64,000 nucleotides of DNA. Origin: Bacteroidota bacterium (GTDB lineage: Bacteria; Bacteroidota; Bacteroidia; 2-12-FULL-35-15). Location of the stretch: positions 1 to 64,000 of the forward strand of contig CANNHN010000007.1 in NCBI GenBank assembly GCA_947504725.1, read 5' to 3'. Made by a program: the position numbers and the translations under genes. The notes beneath the pieces are model-generated. The model had not been told where the DNA came from. It saw only the letters and a program-made list of their open reading frames with translations, and did no database searches. This document shows, piece by piece, positions 3,521 through 62,453 of this stretch. Numbering within the stretch: the stretch's first letter is position 1; each line of letters opens with the position of its first letter.

Positions 3521-3605
3521 CGTCATTGCGAGGAACGAAGCAATCTCTATTAATTGGTAGCTATGTTTCTCATTTTGAAAGATTGCTTCGTTCCTCGCAA
3601 TGACG
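3521..3605. repeat. 26-bp perfect inverted repeat in a convergent gap
   Basis: The arm at 3521-3546 begins CGTCATTGCGAGG and is matched perfectly by its reverse complement at 3580-3605, around a 33-nt spacer. It lies between the 3' ends of the protease and tadA genes, so its RNA could act as a terminator in either direction. The GTCATTGCGAG opening is close to the GTCATTTCGAG motif of other repeats in the window. Confidence 0.85.
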
Positions 3606-7518: not shown

Positions 7519-9294
7519 ATGTTACGATCACACACTTGCGGAGAATTGCGTATTTCAAATGCTGGACAAACAGTTACATTAAGCGGATGGGTTCAAGGAG
7601 TTAGAGATAAAGGTTCTTTGCTTTGGATAGATTTGCGTGATAGATATGGAATTACTCAAATTACCATAGAAACCGATAAAGCTTCAAAAGAATTGGTGGA
7701 TGTTGCACGTACCTTGGGCCGTGAATTTGTAATTTCAGTTACAGGTACTGTTGCGGAGCGGTACTCCAAATCCGATAAATTAGAGACAGGTGATGTTGAA
7801 ATTAATCCTGAAAAAATTGTTGTTATAAACGCTGCCATTACTCCTCCTTTCACTATTGAAGATGAAACAGATGGCGGTGATGATATTCGTATGAAATATC
7901 GTTACCTAGATTTGAGAAGAAATTCGGTGCGCAAAAATTTAGAGTTGCGTCATCGTATTGCTATTGAAGTTCGTAATTATTTAGATAAATTAAATTTCTT
8001 AGAAGTAGAAACGCCTGTTTTAATTAAATCAACTCCTGAAGGCGCAAGAGATTTTGTGGTGCCTTCTCGAATGAATCCAGGTGAGTTTTATGCCTTACCC
8101 CAATCACCACAAACGTTCAAACAATTGTTGATGGTGGGTGGCTTTGATCGTTATTATCAAATTGTAAAATGTTTCAGAGATGAAGATTTGCGAGCTGATC
8201 GTCAACCTGAATTTACTCAGATCGATTGTGAAATGGCATTTGTGGAGCAAGAAGATATTTTAAACACTTTTGAAGGATTGATTCGTCATTTATTTAAGAG
8301 CGTTAAAGGACTCGACATTCCAACACTTTCGAGAATGACGTATGCCGATGCTATGAAATTTTATGGAAACGATAAACCGGATATTCGCTTCGAAATGAAA
8401 TTTGTGGAGATGAATGATATTGTGAAAGGGAAAGATTTTAAAGTGTTTGACGATGCGGAGTTAGTAGTTGGTATTTGTGCGAATGGTGCAGCAGAATATA
8501 CACGTAAACAAATGGATGAATTAACAGAATTCATAAAGCGTCCACAAATTGGTGCAACCGGTTTAATATATGCTCGCTATAATTTAGATGGAACAATTAA
8601 GTCATCAGTAGATAAATTTTATAATGAGGAGGAATTAAAAAAATGGGTTGCAGCATTTGATGCGAAGCCAGGTGATTTAATGATGTTGATTGCAGGCGAA
8701 GAAAACAAAGCTCGTAAAGCATTATCTGAGTTGCGTTTAGAAATGGGCAATCGTTTAGGTTTGAGAGATAAAAATAAATTTGCTTGTCACTGGATTATTG
8801 ATTTTCCATTGTTGGAATTCAGCGAAGAAGTGGATTCAACTTCCGTTGGCGAAAAGGGTGGCCGTTGGCATGCGAAACATCATCCGTTCACATCTCCTAA
8901 ATTGGAAGATGTTGCTTTGCTGGAAACTGATCCAGGTGCTGTTCGTGCAAATGCTTATGATTTGGTAATTAATGGTGTTGAAATTGGTGGTGGTTCTATT
9001 CGTATACACGATAAAAATTTGCAAGCGAAAATGTTCGGCTTGTTAGGTTTCAGTAAAGAGGCTGCACAAGCACAGTTTGGATTCTTGATGAATGCATTTG
9101 AATTTGGTGCGCCTCCACACGGAGGATTAGCATTCGGATTTGATAGATTGTGTTCTTTGTTTGGTGGTGCAGACGTAATTCGTGATTTTATTGCTTTCCC
9201 TAAAAATAATTCAGGACGAGATGTGATGATTGATTCACCATCACCAATAGCGCAAGCCCAGTTGGATGAGTTGATGATTGAGTTGAAGAAGTAA
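7519..9294 (+). CDS. aspS: Aspartate--tRNA ligase
   Basis: Class II aminoacyl-tRNA synthetase charging tRNA-Asp, cytoplasmic. The 591-residue length is that of the bacterial type with a GAD insertion. An N-terminal OB-fold anticodon-binding domain ([13 protein letters not shown]...IDLRDRYG) is followed by motif 2 ([16 protein letters not shown], about residue 218) and motif 3 ([10 protein letters not shown], near residue 535). The [11 protein letters not shown] start is typical of the family. I cannot tell from sequence whether it is discriminating or also charges tRNA-Asn; the presence of gatC in the window would permit the indirect route. It ends in a convergent gap that contains a GTCATTTCGAGTG repeat. 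Confidence 0.97.
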
Positions 9295-9310: not shown

Positions 9311-9352
9311 GTCATTTCGAGTGTTTCGCTTTTCGCGAAACGTATCGAGAAA
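9311..9352 (+). repeat. GTCATTTCGAGTG...CGTATCGAGAA stem-loop repeat, copy 1
   Basis: Conserved left flank GTCATTTCGAGTG, a hairpin GTTTC-GCTTTTCGC-GAAAC, and conserved right flank CGTATCGAGAA. The same flanks enclose different hairpin tips at 32889-32938 and, inverted, at 32970-33012. It lies between the convergent ends of aspS and the lipoprotein gene. Confidence 0.75.
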
Positions 9353-9403: not shown

Positions 9404-10012
9404 TTATTTTGCTGCACCCCAGTTTTGGTTGATAGTTACACTATCGCTTATCTTTGGATCAGGCAGTTCTTCGGCTGAATGTGGAAGCTCTTGAAAGGAT
9501 TCTACCATCTTTAAAATATCCGGTTCTAGTTCTTCTTTATTTTGTCCGCGTGTCCAAACTAAAATTTGATAGAACTCATAAGGTGTTTCTATTAATCCTA
9601 ATTTATAATACACTTCTTTGTTTTCAATTTTTCCTGTTACTTCAGCAATTAATGCTTTGTGTCCGTTTATTTCCTGGCGACCAGGAATGCTTACTTTACC
9701 ATCTTTAATGTTATCTGCAAATCCTTGTGAAGCTATGTTGTTGAAATACGTATCTATGTCGTAATCCAAACTATAATTTTGCATGGTTTTCTTTTTCTCG
9801 TCAATCACCATTGCGTAAACATCTTTTTCTACATTTTGGTATTGCATTGATGCATCTTTATGCAAATCGGTGCAAGGTTGAAGATAATCGGGAATGCTCA
9901 TCGAATATCTATTATTTACTTTCACTTCAGTAAATACAGTTTCGTGCTTGCAAGATGCAAATGCAAGAGGAATAATAAATAGTAATATAATTCGATTAGC
10001 CATTTTGATCAT
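9404..10012 (-). CDS. Lipoprotein of unknown function
   Basis: About 200 residues. A lipoprotein signal peptide (MANRIILLFIIPLAFASC) puts the lipidated cysteine at residue 21 counting from the first Met. The mature part is a mixed alpha/beta sequence with the phrases YSMSIPDYL and NGHKALIAEVTG, which recall PsbP/DUF1795-like lipoproteins in which a short domain is followed by a conserved G-x-x-A strand; this resemblance is weak. The fourth residue is also Met (start at 10003) and gives a better spaced signal peptide. No operon partner is evident: the kinase gene ends 57 bp upstream on the same strand. Confidence 0.75.
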   Translation of the reverse strand: MIKMANRIILLFIIPLAFASCKHETVFTEVKVNNRYSMSIPDYLQPCTDLHKDASMQYQNVEKDVYAMVIDEKKKTMQNYSLDYDIDTYFNNIASQGFADNIKDGKVSIPGRQEINGHKALIAEVTGKIENKEVYYKLGLIETPYEFYQILVWTRGQNKEELEPDILKMVESFQELPHSAEELPDPKISDSVTINQNWGAAK

Positions 10013-30514: not shown

Positions 30515-32125
30515 ATGAAAACGAATTTTAATGCTACTTTAAAAAAGTTAAAAGCCGTAATCAATAAATTTGATTCGGAATCATTGGCTGTTCAACAACA
30601 TGCTTTAAAGGAGTTAAGTGGGTCTAAATTGCTTGTCAATAAAGCCTTATTGGAATACCACGAGTGTTTATTGTTTATGTGCGCTCATCCCAACAATAAA
30701 CAAGTTTTAGATCTTGTAGAAAAGGAATTAAAACGAATTGCCTTATTCTTAAAAAAATCATCTAAAACAGCTTCCACCTTTTTTGAAAATGAAGGATTGC
30801 CTTATTCAAATACAGTTACCCGATTTACTCCGGATTTTCTAAAATGGTTAAGCACGAATACAGATCTTTCGCTTCGATTTAGTTCGTTCTCCGATCCAAC
30901 GTTGACGCTCAACGAAGTATTAAATTTAACCTTGCCGACTGCCTTAAAGGCAACTACGACTGCTGGTTTAGAGGATAAAGAGCTGTTGGAAGAATTGGGT
31001 GTGGCTCCTAAAGATTATCTTTTATTTTTAGTGAATCAGATCGAGCGTTTAAATGATTATCCATTGATTAAAGATTTTTTATTTGAACGACTAGAAGTAT
31101 ATGTGAAGCTTGTTCCGAAAAATGATTTGTTTTCAAGAACGTACAATCGTATCAAAATGAAGCAACCGTTTTTTCACGATTCCTTGCTTAAAAAATTTGA
31201 TCATCAGGTGTTGTTAAATTCTAAACTTCCTGCTGAACGCAGTATGGATGCAAAAGAAACGGCAACCTTGATTGATGTATTGAAGAATGCAATGGCTTTG
31301 ACAGCGCGTGAAACGGATCCAACTACTTTTATTGAACCTTCTTCGTTGAAGGTGTTTGATTTGGAACGGGGGATGAGTGTTTGTATTTATGGGATGGTTC
31401 CTGATCGCCAATTACCTTACGAATCCTATGTTGGATTTACACTCTTGAAAAATGGGTTTCCTTGTTCTTATGGTGGAGGTTGGGTTTTTGGCAAAGGTGC
31501 CAATTTTGGAATGAATATTTTAGAATCATTCAGAGGTGGTGAATCGGGATATGTGATGTGTCAATTGTTAAGAGTTTATAAACAAGCCTTCCATCTCACT
31601 TATATTGAAATTGAAGCGTATCAGTTTGGCTTGGATAATCCGGATGGTATTACCAGTGGTGCGTTTTGGTTCTATTACCGTTATGGATTCCGACCACTCG
31701 ACAACGACTTGTTGAAGTTATCGAATTCGGAGTTTGCGAAAATTCAAACGAAAAAGAATTATCGGAGTAGTGAAAAAACATTGCTGAAATTCACCGAATC
31801 AAATGTAGCATTGAACATGGAAAAGAAAATTCCGGTTCGAGTAGCAGATATTACCGAAAAGATTAAAATCCTTATATCTAAAAAGTATAAGAATGATGCT
31901 ACGTTGGCTGAAAGGAAGAGTGTTGAATTGTTTTTGGAAAAAACGAGACAACCACTACCGCAATCAAAAGATGAAAAGGCGATTTTAAATGAAGTGGCAT
32001 TGTGGGTAAATGCGTTTGAAATTTCGGATCCTGAAAAGATTAAAATATTCTCGCAGTTGGTTTTTGCGAAAACAAATGATCTGTATGCGTATCAAAAGTT
32101 ATTAAATCAAATTTTTGAACATTAA
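30515..32125 (+). CDS. Conserved protein of unknown function with GNAT-like motif
   Basis: A 536-residue soluble protein, no signal peptide. An N-terminal helical part (1-260) is followed by a region (about 275-420) with VCIYGMVPDRQLPYESYVGF, YGGGWVFGKGANFGMN, ESGYVMCQLLRVYKQ and GAFWFYYRYGFRP. The last phrase and the order of strands look like the second half of a GNAT acetyltransferase (x-Y-Y-x-x-x-G-F), so acyl transfer is possible but unproven. A helical tail ends it. It follows the radical SAM gene by 30 bp and shares the TTAA that carries the stop codons of both itself and the convergent gene. I do not recognise a named family. Confidence 0.8.
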   Translation: MKTNFNATLKKLKAVINKFDSESLAVQQHALKELSGSKLLVNKALLEYHECLLFMCAHPNNKQVLDLVEKELKRIALFLKKSSKTASTFFENEGLPYSNTVTRFTPDFLKWLSTNTDLSLRFSSFSDPTLTLNEVLNLTLPTALKATTTAGLEDKELLEELGVAPKDYLLFLVNQIERLNDYPLIKDFLFERLEVYVKLVPKNDLFSRTYNRIKMKQPFFHDSLLKKFDHQVLLNSKLPAERSMDAKETATLIDVLKNAMALTARETDPTTFIEPSSLKVFDLERGMSVCIYGMVPDRQLPYESYVGFTLLKNGFPCSYGGGWVFGKGANFGMNILESFRGGESGYVMCQLLRVYKQAFHLTYIEIEAYQFGLDNPDGITSGAFWFYYRYGFRPLDNDLLKLSNSEFAKIQTKKNYRSSEKTLLKFTESNVALNMEKKIPVRVADITEKIKILISKKYKNDATLAERKSVELFLEKTRQPLPQSKDEKAILNEVALWVNAFEISDPEKIKIFSQLVFAKTNDLYAYQKLLNQIFEH

Positions 32126-32772
32126 CTTTTGTTCATTTTAAAGGTGCTCCAATCTACACCAACCCGAAACGTTTGGTAGATTCTTCCGTTGGAAAGACTA
32201 TCGCCAAAGTGATTGGTTGCAGAATGAAAAACACCGGAAGGGTATGCTACCATGCGATTTACAAGGTATCCTACACGGTCAATCTCAATCCATTTCGATC
32301 TGTCTTTGCTCTCTTTTTCTAATTGAGCTCTTAGTTTTGGAAAATTTAACTTCAATCTTTTTGCATCTGCGGGTGATACTGGATTCGTTAACCCTGTTTG
32401 TTTGTGCATCCATAATGATGTCCCACAGTCAATCGGTATATTGGGAGTGAGGTAAACGACAATCGTAACATCGTTATAAGGTTCATCTGAATGAACACCT
32501 GGTTTTTCTTTTTTCTTCCCCTCAGAAAATCCAAAATAAAATACGCCATTCTCTTCCAATGGATCAGTGTCCCATCGGGTGATTTTTAAACCTAGAATTT
32601 TTTCAAGTTTCGCTTTAACACCTTTGGGGTGATATACTTTATCACTGCGGTAGCCTGTTGCGTGCTCAGGTTGATAAAAATTCGATTTCAAAGCCGTTTG
32701 CAGTACTTCATTTGGCTTGTCGTAAAAATTATCTTTAACGATCAAAAATCTGGGGTAGATTATTTTTTCCAT
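32122..32772 (-). CDS. DUF6445-like / 2-oxoglutarate-oxygenase-fold protein
   Basis: 216 residues. The order VKDNFYDKPNEVLQTAL, VHSDEPYNDVTIVVYLTP, IDCGTSLWMHKQTG, and FHSATNHFG...RIYQTFRVG is a double-stranded beta-helix arrangement: H-x-D (H in VHSDE and the following D) plus a distal His and Arg, the metal and co-substrate set of Fe(II)/2-oxoglutarate enzymes. This matches the DUF6445 proteins of this superfamily as I know them, whose reaction is not established. It overlaps the convergent gene by four nt. Confidence 0.75.
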   Translation of the reverse strand: MEKIIYPRFLIVKDNFYDKPNEVLQTALKSNFYQPEHATGYRSDKVYHPKGVKAKLEKILGLKITRWDTDPLEENGVFYFGFSEGKKKEKPGVHSDEPYNDVTIVVYLTPNIPIDCGTSLWMHKQTGLTNPVSPADAKRLKLNFPKLRAQLEKESKDRSKWIEIDRVGYLVNRMVAYPSGVFHSATNHFGDSLSNGRIYQTFRVGVDWSTFKMNKS

Positions 32773-32888: not shown

Positions 32889-32938
32889 GTCAGTTCGAGT
32901 GTTTCTGATGCTGGAAGCAGTAGAAACGTATCGAGAAT
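32889..32938 (+). repeat. GTCA-TTCGAGTG stem-loop repeat, copy 2
   Basis: Flanks GTCAGTTCGAGTG and CGTATCGAGAA as in copy 1 at 9311, here with a different stem-loop tip between GTTTC and GAAAC. Confidence 0.75.
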
Positions 32939-32969
32939 GAACAGATAATTATCTTTTTTGCGTTACAAT

Positions 32970-33012
32970 ACTTCTCGATACAATTTTGTTACACAAAATC
33001 ACTCGAAGTGAC
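32970..33012 (-). repeat. GTCA-TTCGAGTG stem-loop repeat, copy 3 (inverted)
   Basis: On the minus strand it reads GTCACTTCGAGTG, a hairpin ATTTTGT-GTA-ACAAAAT, and TGTATCGAGAAGT. It faces copy 2, giving an inverted pair of about 124 bp. Confidence 0.75.
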
Positions 33013-33060: not shown

Positions 33061-33105
33061 TAATCTGCACATCTACTAATCTGCACATCTACTAATCTGC
33101 ACATC
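33061..33105. repeat. 16-bp tandem repeat abutting the frr stop codon
   Basis: TAATCTGCACATCTAC at 33061-33076 and 33077-33092, followed by TAATCTGCACATC. The last copy runs into the frr stop codon. Confidence 0.8.
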
Positions 33106-33667
33106 AGACAGTCATAATCTCTTTTTCTTTTACTTCTAAATGTTTATCGCATTTTACAACGTACCCGTCAGTCAGTGTCTGAACAAGGACTTCAGCGCTT
33201 TTTACTTCATCTTCTGGCGTTCCGTTCTTTTGCAATTTTTTTAATTCTTCGTTAGCATCTTTTCTAGCTGTACGTAAAACAACTTTTGCATTTTCAGCTT
33301 CCGATTTTGCTTTCTTCACTAAATCTCTTCTTCGCTCTTCTGTTAATGCAGGAACTAAAATGCGAATCAATACACCATCATTTTGTGGATTCAATCCTAA
33401 GTTCGCAGCCATAATAGCTTTTTCAATTGGAGTCAACATTGATTTTTCCCAAGGTTGAACAACCAAAGTTCTAGCATCCGCTGTATTTACATTTGCTACT
33501 TGGTTTAATGGTGTTCGCGTTCCATAATAATCTACAGAAATACTTTCTAGCATTGTCGGACTCGCTTTTCCAGCACGTACTTTTACTAATTCTGCTTCCA
33601 AATGATCAAGAGCTTTTTCCATTTGCTCTTTTGCGCTGTCTAATATAAATTGAATTTCGTCTGTCAT
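33104..33667 (-). CDS. frr: Ribosome-recycling factor
   Basis: Releases the 50S subunit from mRNA after termination, together with EF-G. 187 residues, the expected length. Family features: MEKALDHLEAELVKVRAGKASPTMLE at the start of the long helix, DYYGTRTPLNQVANV in the domain II region, and LTEERRRDLVKKAKSEAENAKV in the C-terminal helix. It follows pyrH after 92 bp in the rplM-rpsI-rpsB-tsf-pyrH-frr order common in Bacteroidota. The gap to pyrH holds two word tracts. Confidence 0.97.
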   Translation of the reverse strand: MTDEIQFILDSAKEQMEKALDHLEAELVKVRAGKASPTMLESISVDYYGTRTPLNQVANVNTADARTLVVQPWEKSMLTPIEKAIMAANLGLNPQNDGVLIRILVPALTEERRRDLVKKAKSEAENAKVVLRTARKDANEELKKLQKNGTPEDEVKSAEVLVQTLTDGYVVKCDKHLEVKEKEIMTV

Positions 33668-50500: not shown

Positions 50501-51703
50501 ATGTACGATACCGGGAAGAAGTTGGAAACTGCCGTTTTGGTTGGCTTGATTAATAGAAGTCAGGATGAAGATACTGCGAAAGAATATTTGGATGAACTCG
50601 AATTTCTAGCTGAAACTGCTGGTGCAAAAGTTTTAAAGCGATACACACAGCGTTTAGAGCATCCTGATTCAAGAACATTTATTGGTGCAGGGAAGTTAAA
50701 TGATGTAAAAACATTTGTTTCTGACAATAATGTAGACATCGTTATTTTTGATGATGAACTATCTCCCGCGCAACAAAGAAATTTGGAGAAGGAGATAAAC
50801 GTAGAAAAAGAAATCAAAGTAAAAGTGGTTGATCGTACCCGATTAATCCTAGATATTTTTGCAGCTCGAGCTAGAACAGCGCATGCGAAAACGCAAGTAG
50901 AATTAGCACAATCCATTTATTTATTACCACGATTAACTAAAATGTGGGACCACTTAGACCGTATCAAAGGAGGTATTGGTATGAAAGGGGCAGGGGAAAC
51001 GGAGATAGAGACCGATAGACGAATTGTGCGCGATAGAATTGCTTTGTTGAAAGAGCGATTGAAAGTCATTGACCGACAAATGGAAACACAACGCAAAAAT
51101 CGGGGTGATATGATTCGCGTAGCTTTAGTAGGATATACCAACGTTGGTAAATCTACAATTATGAATATGTTGAGTAAAAGCGAAGTGTTTGCAGAAAATA
51201 AATTGTTTGCAACATTAGATACAACTGTAAGGAAAGTGGTGATTGAAAATCTTCCCTTTTTATTATCCGATACTGTAGGATTTATTCGAAAATTGCCAAC
51301 TACTTTGGTTGAGTCTTTTAAGTCAACCTTGGATGAAGTTCGAGAAGCAGATATCTTGATTCATGTTGTAGATATTTCTCATTCTGGTTTTGAAGATCAA
51401 TTGAATGTAGTAAATCAAACTCTTACAGATATTGGTGCTGGCGACAAACCTGTATTACTAGTGTTTAATAAAATTGATGCTTTTGTTTTCGAACAAAAAG
51501 ATGAAGATGATCTAACTCCTTCTACAAAGAAAAATTTAAGTTTAGATGATTTGAAAAAAACATGGATGAGTAAGCTTCATTCAGAATGTTTATTTGTTTC
51601 AGCTGTTGAAAAACAAAACATTGATGAATTCAAGAAAGTGCTTTATGATAAAGTAAAGGATATGCATCAGAAAAGATATCCTTACAATAAGTTTTTGTAC
51701 TAA
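50501..51703 (+). CDS. hflX: GTPase HflX
   Basis: 400-residue TRAFAC-class GTPase that binds the 50S subunit and rescues stalled or heat-damaged ribosomes. N-terminal domain with FIGAGKLNDVK and DDELSPAQQRNLEK, coiled region with RIKGGIGMKGAGETEIETDRR, and the G domain: GYTNVGKST (G1), TLDTTVRK (G2), LSDTVGFIRKLP (G3), VFNKID (G4). A complete member. Its stop codon overlaps that of the convergent transpeptidase gene. Confidence 0.96.
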   Translation: MYDTGKKLETAVLVGLINRSQDEDTAKEYLDELEFLAETAGAKVLKRYTQRLEHPDSRTFIGAGKLNDVKTFVSDNNVDIVIFDDELSPAQQRNLEKEINVEKEIKVKVVDRTRLILDIFAARARTAHAKTQVELAQSIYLLPRLTKMWDHLDRIKGGIGMKGAGETEIETDRRIVRDRIALLKERLKVIDRQMETQRKNRGDMIRVALVGYTNVGKSTIMNMLSKSEVFAENKLFATLDTTVRKVVIENLPFLLSDTVGFIRKLPTTLVESFKSTLDEVREADILIHVVDISHSGFEDQLNVVNQTLTDIGAGDKPVLLVFNKIDAFVFEQKDEDDLTPSTKKNLSLDDLKKTWMSKLHSECLFVSAVEKQNIDEFKKVLYDKVKDMHQKRYPYNKFLY

Positions 51704-60053: not shown

Positions 60054-60095
60054 TTTCTCGCCCTTCGACTCCGCTCAGGGTGACAACTCGAAATG
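60054..60095. repeat. CCTTCGACTCCGCTCAGG repeat with CGAAATGAC end
   Basis: ATTTCTCGCCCTTCGACTCC, then GCTCAGGGTGAC, then CTCGAAATGAC. It is related to the element at 57296-57347 and overlaps an ATG (60093) in frame with the following gene. Confidence 0.65.
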
Positions 60096-62238: not shown

Positions 62239-62453
62239 ATTTTATTGCAGATCAAGTGAAGGATTGTCAATGAATCAAAATGTTTGTTTGTTGTCATTTC
62301 GAGCGAAGTCGAGAAATCTATCATGAATTGTATTTAATGGCTAGTTAGTTTTCTCCGCTTCGGTCGGAAGGACATAGTAGAGTGAAAGAGAGATAGTTTT
62401 TTAATTTTATCTGCGTTTATCAGCGAAATCTGCGTGCCACTTTTTTATTAGGA
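62239..62453. other. Convergent gap made up of repeats
   Basis: 215 bp with no gene. A GTCATTTCGAG-type repeat (62292-62318), a diverged inverted copy (62350-62373) and a segment with GGCACGCAGAT (62405-62440, minus strand), which resembles the ends of the GxxExxY element. Confidence 0.65.
62292..62318 (+). repeat. GTCATTTCGAG-type repeat
   Basis: GTCATTTCGAG-CGAAGT-CGAGAAATCT in the gap after the thioesterase gene. The best preserved form of this motif in the window. Confidence 0.65.

Follow-up and report, generated by a model that had tools for sequence, protein, structure and literature searches.

CGTC-tagged palindromic repeats with a variable hairpin tip in Bacteroidota, and the GIY-YIG nuclease genes that they flank

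What are the small hairpin repeats that recur in this stretch of Bacteroidota DNA, and does an enzyme spread them? The window, meaning the whole stretch analysed, is 64 kb long. An earlier note on it had picked out three copies of one unit, two of them facing each other, and all three are present. They are a variant form, referred to here as V-type, of the repetitive extragenic palindromes (REPs) that carry a CGTC tag. The window also holds a pair of REPs from another class.

3522..3604 (3522-3544 +, 3582-3604 -): facing pair of canonical CGTC REPs, GTCATTGCGAGGAACGAAGCAAT, another class of the same superfamily; arms identical
9311..9352, + strand: V-type REP copy 1; core 9316-9351; CGTC-tagged
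32889..32938, + strand: V-type REP copy 2, first member of the facing pair; core 32894-32937
32939..32970, no strand: spacer of the facing pair, 32 bp; tags outward, tails inward
32971..33012, - strand: V-type REP copy 3, inverted second member of the facing pair; core 32972-33007

Single units of two further CGTC classes lie at 60064-60084 (-; GTCACCCTGAGCGGAGTCGAA) and 62293-62314 (+; GTCATTTCGAGCGAAGTCGAGA), which brings the number of REP classes within 64 kb to at least four.

Anatomy of the unit

All three window copies have the form (C/T)GTCA-X-TTCGAGTG-hairpin-GTATCGAGAA-X'. Copy 1, which has convergent genes on either side (aspS, ending at 9294, and a - strand ORF at 9404-10012), consists of the GTCA tag (9311-9314), X=T (9315), the left foot TTCGAGTG (9316-9323), the hairpin, the right foot GTATCGAGAA (9342-9351) and X'=A (9352). 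The facing pair at 32889-33012 lies between a DUF6445 gene (32122-32772) and frr (33104-33667). Its first member has the tag at 32889-32892, X=G, feet at 32894-32901 and 32928-32937, a two-part hairpin as its tip, and X'=T (a G.T pair); its second member reads GTCA at 33012-33009, X=C at 33008, feet at 33007-33000 and 32981-32972, and X'=G at 32971, with a tip unlike that of copy 2. The pattern TCGAGNG-N5-35-TATCGAGA matches three times in the window against 0.01 expected, and none of 100 shuffles reached three. The three tips all differ, and each folds (z -2.5, -4.6 and -2.9; z -7.2 for the facing pair jointly). An Rfam search at the repeats returned no family. Adjoining the pair, just downstream of frr, is a 16-bp perfect tandem repeat of 2.8 copies (33061-33105).

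How general is this anatomy? A pattern scan of genome_contigs gave at least 192 copies in at least 117 stretches among the matches listed; the named records among these matches are mostly Flavobacteriia, with a few labelled Chlorobiota, Chitinophagaceae or Dojkabacteria. The constant flanks described in the earlier note recur throughout this sample: G, T, C and A at positions -5, -4, -3 and -2 are kept in 179, 186, 184 and 173 of the at least 192 copies, and the unit starts with GTCA, mostly as CGTCA or TGTCA (C or T precedes the tag in 183/192). The flank as it had been drawn is thus conserved but slightly short, in that the base X after GTCA pairs with the base beyond GAGAA. This pair is Watson-Crick in 167/191 copies among the matches listed, against a shuffled mean of 70 and a largest shuffled value of 93, so the compensatory changes that the note had proposed looking for do occur. 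Over the three positions further out, pairing drops to 71, 51 and 41 of 191, which leaves the tag unpaired. No CCA-like consensus tail follows X' in the at least 192 copies.

Inside the foot, the tip varies and still pairs, as had been noted from only three copies. There are 174 distinct interiors among the at least 192 copies, yet tip stem positions 1-5 are Watson-Crick in 167-180 of 190-192 copies, with several pair types per position, and at least five contiguous pairs run from the tip base in 137/192 copies against 2.6 for shuffled interiors. The unit consists of the foot plus a variable hairpin, with an interior of 12-38 nt, and for this reason V-type was filed as a variant outside families 1-4.

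The foot itself is constant and imperfect. In a relaxed-foot set (n=339), the pair at -2/+2 changes from T-A to A-T in 6 copies, and -3/+3 is Watson-Crick in 302. Among 37 foot variants, some keep pairing (ATCGAG/CGAGAT, GTTGAG/CGAGAC, TTTGAG/CGAAAA), while TTCGGG/CGGGAA and several single changes fit simple foot pairing poorly. These data favour a foot that pairs as X-T-T-C/G-A-A-X', beyond which come tandem G.A mismatches and then a G-C pair. The V-type foot, X-TTCGAG/CGAGAA-X', probably has C-G and G-C pairs enclosing the tandem G.A mismatches, with an internal loop TG/GTAT next. Tandem G.A pairs can be sheared.

Why does the tip change without losing its pairing? That the structure is under selection, as suggested earlier, is plausible though unproven, since hairpin-templated repair could also keep the arms complementary. 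The alternatives would be recognition of the stem only, with selection, or repair templated by one arm after cutting. A foot that is never perfected is evidence against a blind correction of the entire unit towards a palindrome, and its constant mismatches (GA/AG, with the internal loop) argue that recognition maintains the foot at least.

Distribution, and the case against host elements and a Y1 transposase

The window's genome has seven exact copies, against none for a reversed control pattern, and looser matching adds two further facing pairs (C1:507791/507866 and C17:20457/20517). The repeat pattern occurs in 13/36 genomes of the genus, with 0-85 copies each, and in 38/296 genomes drawn from the class. 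Among the at least 192 copies, 53 neighbours lie within 150 bp of each other: 24 are tag-outward pairs, 7 are divergent and 22 are on the same strand. The BIME-like arrangement that had been proposed from the window therefore recurs, 24 of the 31 opposed neighbours having their GTCA tags outward. The 24 outward-tagged pairs, among the matches listed, span 15-62 bp, so the 32-bp spacer of the window is typical. No identical tips were found among the 31 opposed pairs. Same-strand neighbours have a tip likeness of 0.87, as against 0.50 for opposed neighbours and 0.52 for random loci.

Are these copies simply host elements, such as hairpins at gene ends that act in RNA or DNA (transcript ends, topoisomerase sites), kept by selection and never mobile? 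Their positions would suit such a role: only 6/192 copies lie inside ORFs of at least 150 aa, compared with 0.775 (78%) of random positions, and among the at least 192 copies the flanking genes are convergent in 26 cases and divergent in 8 (same direction 47, edge or far 105, inside 6). Four observations make this reading very unlikely. First, the distribution is patchy even within the one genus. Second, terminator prediction called none at the window's facing pair. Third, arrays of the units flank a nuclease gene, described below. Fourth, the tag is conserved despite being unpaired.

The largest numbers come from Tenacibaculum finnmarkense, with 143 copies in TNO010 and 98 in TNO006. From 40 loci, 33 flank segments were compared between the two genomes; 21 pairs aligned, of which two were poor and 19 clean. 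None of the 21 gave a clean empty site, and no whole-unit insertion was found in the 19 clean orthologous pairs, which indicates that movement was not recent there. The single difference of note is a 64-bp deletion inside one pair, and a check for in-place compensatory changes found few differences outside arrays. In this species (L277-L316, G320), two tip types mostly partner each other within conserved outer flanks, forming a larger composite unit, and the composite pairs form arrays with a period of ~144 bp. Separately, the exact pattern was found in 18 stretches of IMG/VR contigs (L237-L254), which may be host DNA or may reflect carriage by phages.

The earlier note had named a RAYT, a REP-associated tyrosine transposase of the HUH/Y1 type, as the maker. 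The tag, the hairpin and the facing pairs are indeed the general anatomy of the GTAG REPs of RAYTs, as the survey by Di Nocera, De Gregorio and Rocco describes it (PMC3733652). The gene searches do not support a RAYT. PF01797 is absent from the window's genome, while an E. coli positive control gives matches. Across the 296 class genomes, Y1 genes are present in 27/38 repeat-bearing genomes and 176/258 others (p 0.85, hand count), and in the genus the association is inverse, with PF01797 lacking from 6/13 repeat-bearing genomes and 1/23 others (p 0.005). In T. finnmarkense, TNO006 has no Y1 gene and TNO010 has one weak match. Such repeats occur at just 2/30 Y1 loci, ~1.2 kb away from the gene; REP classes stand on both sides of the Y1 gene at 0/23 loci; and no Y1 relative was found among the ORFs of the 117 listed repeat loci. 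That the units were made by a since-lost RAYT is therefore highly improbable.

A GIY-YIG nuclease gene flanked by the repeats

If not a Y1 transposase, which gene travels with the repeats? When 477 ORFs near copies were clustered, the commonest family, found at five loci, was a ~97-aa SLX1-like GIY-YIG protein; a sulfatase-like family came second with four loci. A profile built from the five proteins located 14 genes (with partly overlapping loci, L054/L132 and L262/L267/L272), and repeats lie within 800 bp of 13/14. Because the first loci had been selected for carrying the repeat, a later search used the protein alone (alignment A1, 10 rows, cut-off 1e-8). It matched 175/296 class genomes. 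The top 14 genomes by A1 score all bear the repeat pattern, compared with 38/296 overall; training rows had come from five of these genomes, and the ranking is partly circular because repeat-flanked members went into the profile. This circularity does not touch the 13 genes from outside the training set, or the further REP classes, described next.

Are the genes flanked by repeats more generally? The locus set comprised 136 loci among the matches listed, with the gene located in 135 (L381 and L436 being the same gene). Thirty of these loci came from the class search and 26 from a second search, and 80 were selected from the rows that further searches listed. The 450-bp flanks of each gene were aligned with each other, with no repeat pattern supplied and with the 99% level of mismatched pairs as the threshold. 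The flanks exceed it at 96/135 GIY-YIG genes (39/135 fall under it), as against 11/378 ordinary genes in repeat loci and 0/47 window genes. Most of the blocks that match are palindromes with a GTC tag, and they belong to several classes. With class patterns picked after these blocks had been viewed, listed REP classes are found on both sides of the gene at 54/135 GIY-YIG loci, 2/378 controls and 0/23 Y1 loci. V-type units are bilateral at 20 GIY-YIG loci, and 13 distinct genes among them lie outside the training set. For example, each of the two T. finnmarkense genomes has a single GIY-YIG gene, and that of TNO006 (C18:50980-51267) is bracketed by V-type copies at 50914-50962 and 51337-51385, which have a tip found at no other place among the matches listed. 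A strict detector, requiring the tag and a 6-bp perfect stem on both sides, found 6/135 GIY-YIG genes and 5/378 controls; it missed most units owing to the foot mismatches.

Copy number in the genus is related to the presence of such a gene. The five genomes with a V-flanked GIY-YIG gene have 35, 9, 85, 31 and 6 copies, one of the five genes being stop-interrupted with V-type units on one side only. The other 8 of the 13 repeat-bearing genomes, in which no V-flanked GIY-YIG gene was found among the loci read, have 7, 19, 3, 4, 3, 16, 2 and 8 copies (p 0.02).

What kind of protein is this? Four of four proteins match PF01541 (E 8e-16 to 4e-19), the motif residues Y7, Y17, G19, R27, H31 and E65 are invariant in A1, and NCBIfam named none of the four tested. 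The closest solved chains by sequence are the UPF0213 proteins 1zg2 and 1ywl. For a predicted model (pLDDT 73, moderate), the match to 1zg2 has an E of 4e-6 and those to Slx1-Slx4 entries 0.02-0.05, so that sequence and predicted fold are nearest to UPF0213 and Slx1, branched-DNA nucleases. We take a COG2827-like label to fit such UPF0213/SLX1-type proteins. Most V-flanked proteins carry a C-terminal tail, LPxLxKKxF, which is absent from the protein at L375; it is a candidate foot-recognition element.

The class of the flanking REPs follows the nuclease lineage. In a tree of 134 proteins (105 columns, built by a quick method, with many open forks; 26 class-less rows uncounted), REP class needs 20 changes against a shuffled mean of 52.2, with 0/200 shuffles as low. 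Classes N, C and H each occupy one side of a branch, and V needs 8 changes against 22.7 when shuffled.

The window's own genome has five GIY-YIG genes. V-type units flank none of them, so the cognate pair was not seen there, and the genome's seven V-type copies are best read as orphans. Units of the form GTCACCCTGAGC..GTCGAAGGG stand on both sides of the gene at L375, and GTCATCCCGTGC..CACGGGATC units on both sides of that at L406. At L408 (G000:C13), a direct repeat flanking the GIY-YIG gene reads like tRNA-gene sequence.

The linkage extends beyond Bacteroidota. A tblastn search with one such protein against plasmid records found 32 records, mostly Rhizobiaceae and Sphingomonadaceae, and also Neisseria and Azospirillum. 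Of 16 loci examined from the 32, the flanks of 12 score above the threshold, and inspection by eye shows a palindrome tagged CGTC or GTC at 14; no CGTC palindrome was found at the other two, from R. tumorigenes and Photobacterium. The canonical pattern CGTCATTGC has no match in the 16 loci, the palindromes there having other letters. The REP-GIY pattern repeats itself in Sinorhizobium, Azospirillum and Neisseria, and the Neisseria unit, CGTCATTCCCGCGCAGGCGGGAATCC, has the form of dRS3. A Planktothrix agardhii plasmid (L495) has a GIY-YIG gene with tagged repeats between genes for a type IIL restriction enzyme and a DISARM helicase.

Is the nuclease gene a cause of the repeats or a passenger among them? 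GIY-YIG enzymes include homing nucleases, and the gene could be a selfish element of that type for which REPs serve as target or landing site, the REPs themselves being spread by another enzyme, extinct or unrecognised. A gene-less REP pair in Sinorhizobium C101, at the place where S. meliloti Ak57 has REP-GIY-REP and a truncated GIY copy, would fit such a homing history; in a Shinella comparison the sequences were highly diverged. Comparison also gives one cassette insertion, and it points the other way. In Azospirillum lipoferum, sufB and sufC are separated by REP-GIY-REP; in A. thermophilum and A. brasilense a short gap separates them, and it holds no REP and no GIY-YIG gene. The gap has diverged, so the exact ends of the block are unreadable, but the lack of a REP in these relatives suggests that gene and REPs came together. 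Moreover, the other gene families near copies recur less often, Y1 shows no association, and the nuclease clade tracks the REP class, though a target-specific homing enzyme would do so too. Taken together, a passenger role seems rather unlikely.

Interpretation and comparison with known systems

The GIY-YIG nuclease probably spreads or processes the repeats. Our preferred reading, which we consider likely, is that V-type units are distinct CGTC-tagged REPs flanking a class-specific GIY-YIG nuclease that recognises, cuts and mobilises them. In the active form, units that are single or arrayed, in either orientation, would flank the gene for the ~97-aa protein. The nuclease would recognise tag and foot once the hairpin is extruded, in single-stranded or cruciform DNA, and would cut there; repair or re-insertion after the cut would copy the unit to new places. 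Facing pairs such as 32889-33012 would be miniature forms without the gene. If the tip is required as a stem only, its letters could drift freely while the arms remain complementary.

How far might this reach? The nuclease is a strong candidate for the enzyme of CGTC REPs. A broader proposition, on which we are evenly divided, is that all CGTC-tagged REPs across phyla, including Neisseria dRS3, form one mobile class with a dedicated single-domain SLX1-like GIY-YIG enzyme that copies a tagged hairpin foot by cutting structured DNA; the common Bacteroidota repeats GTCAnnCTGAGC..GTCGAAG and TTCGAG..TCGAGAA would belong to the same class. If so, palindromic repeats would have a second type of spreading enzyme, with movement unlike that of RAYT, IS200/IS605 or DDE elements and with V-type as a case in which the tip was freed to vary, and a large family now named only “GIY-YIG nuclease family protein” would gain a function. 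CGTC REPs are widespread, and the 2013 survey left open which enzyme, if any, spreads them (PMC3733652). The gene-by-gene, class-by-class link makes that question bench-testable with one protein and one oligonucleotide. No paper joining GIY-YIG proteins with REPs was found among those listed in searches of the open-access literature.

The closest known system is that of the CGTC REPs themselves. The survey places them in Bacteroidetes, Alphaproteobacteria and Neisseria, where CGTC-1 is equated with dRS3, and gives them a stem of 8-9 bp, a loop of 4-5 nt and an unpaired CCA-like tail of three bases, with no dedicated enzyme described (PMC3733652). V-type units share with the REPs as described there the unpaired CGTC/TGTC tag at one end, the small palindrome, the intergenic location and the facing heterodimers, and the GIY-YIG linkage found here extends to CGTC-REP groups of all three taxa. 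They differ in the mismatched constant foot with a second, hypervariable hairpin, the lack of a CCA tail, the frequent clusters and the linked nuclease.

Three other systems bear comparison. First, as in REP/RAYT systems and REPINs, an enzyme gene is bracketed by its own REPs, gene-less pairs are dispersed and matching is class-specific; unlike in REP/RAYT systems, the enzyme has an SLX1-type GIY-YIG fold rather than HUH Y1, and the tag is GTCA rather than GTAG. Second, the protein resembles SLX1 and UPF0213 in its sequence match to 1zg2 and 1ywl, its predicted fold match to Slx1 and its retained GIY-YIG motif residues, but its genes are bracketed by class-matched palindromes and its ~97 aa are the nuclease domain alone. 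Third, in integron attC sites, too, the foot is constant and the tip varies but is paired; V-type units, unlike attC, have no attC core motif in their constant parts and no integrase linkage was seen.
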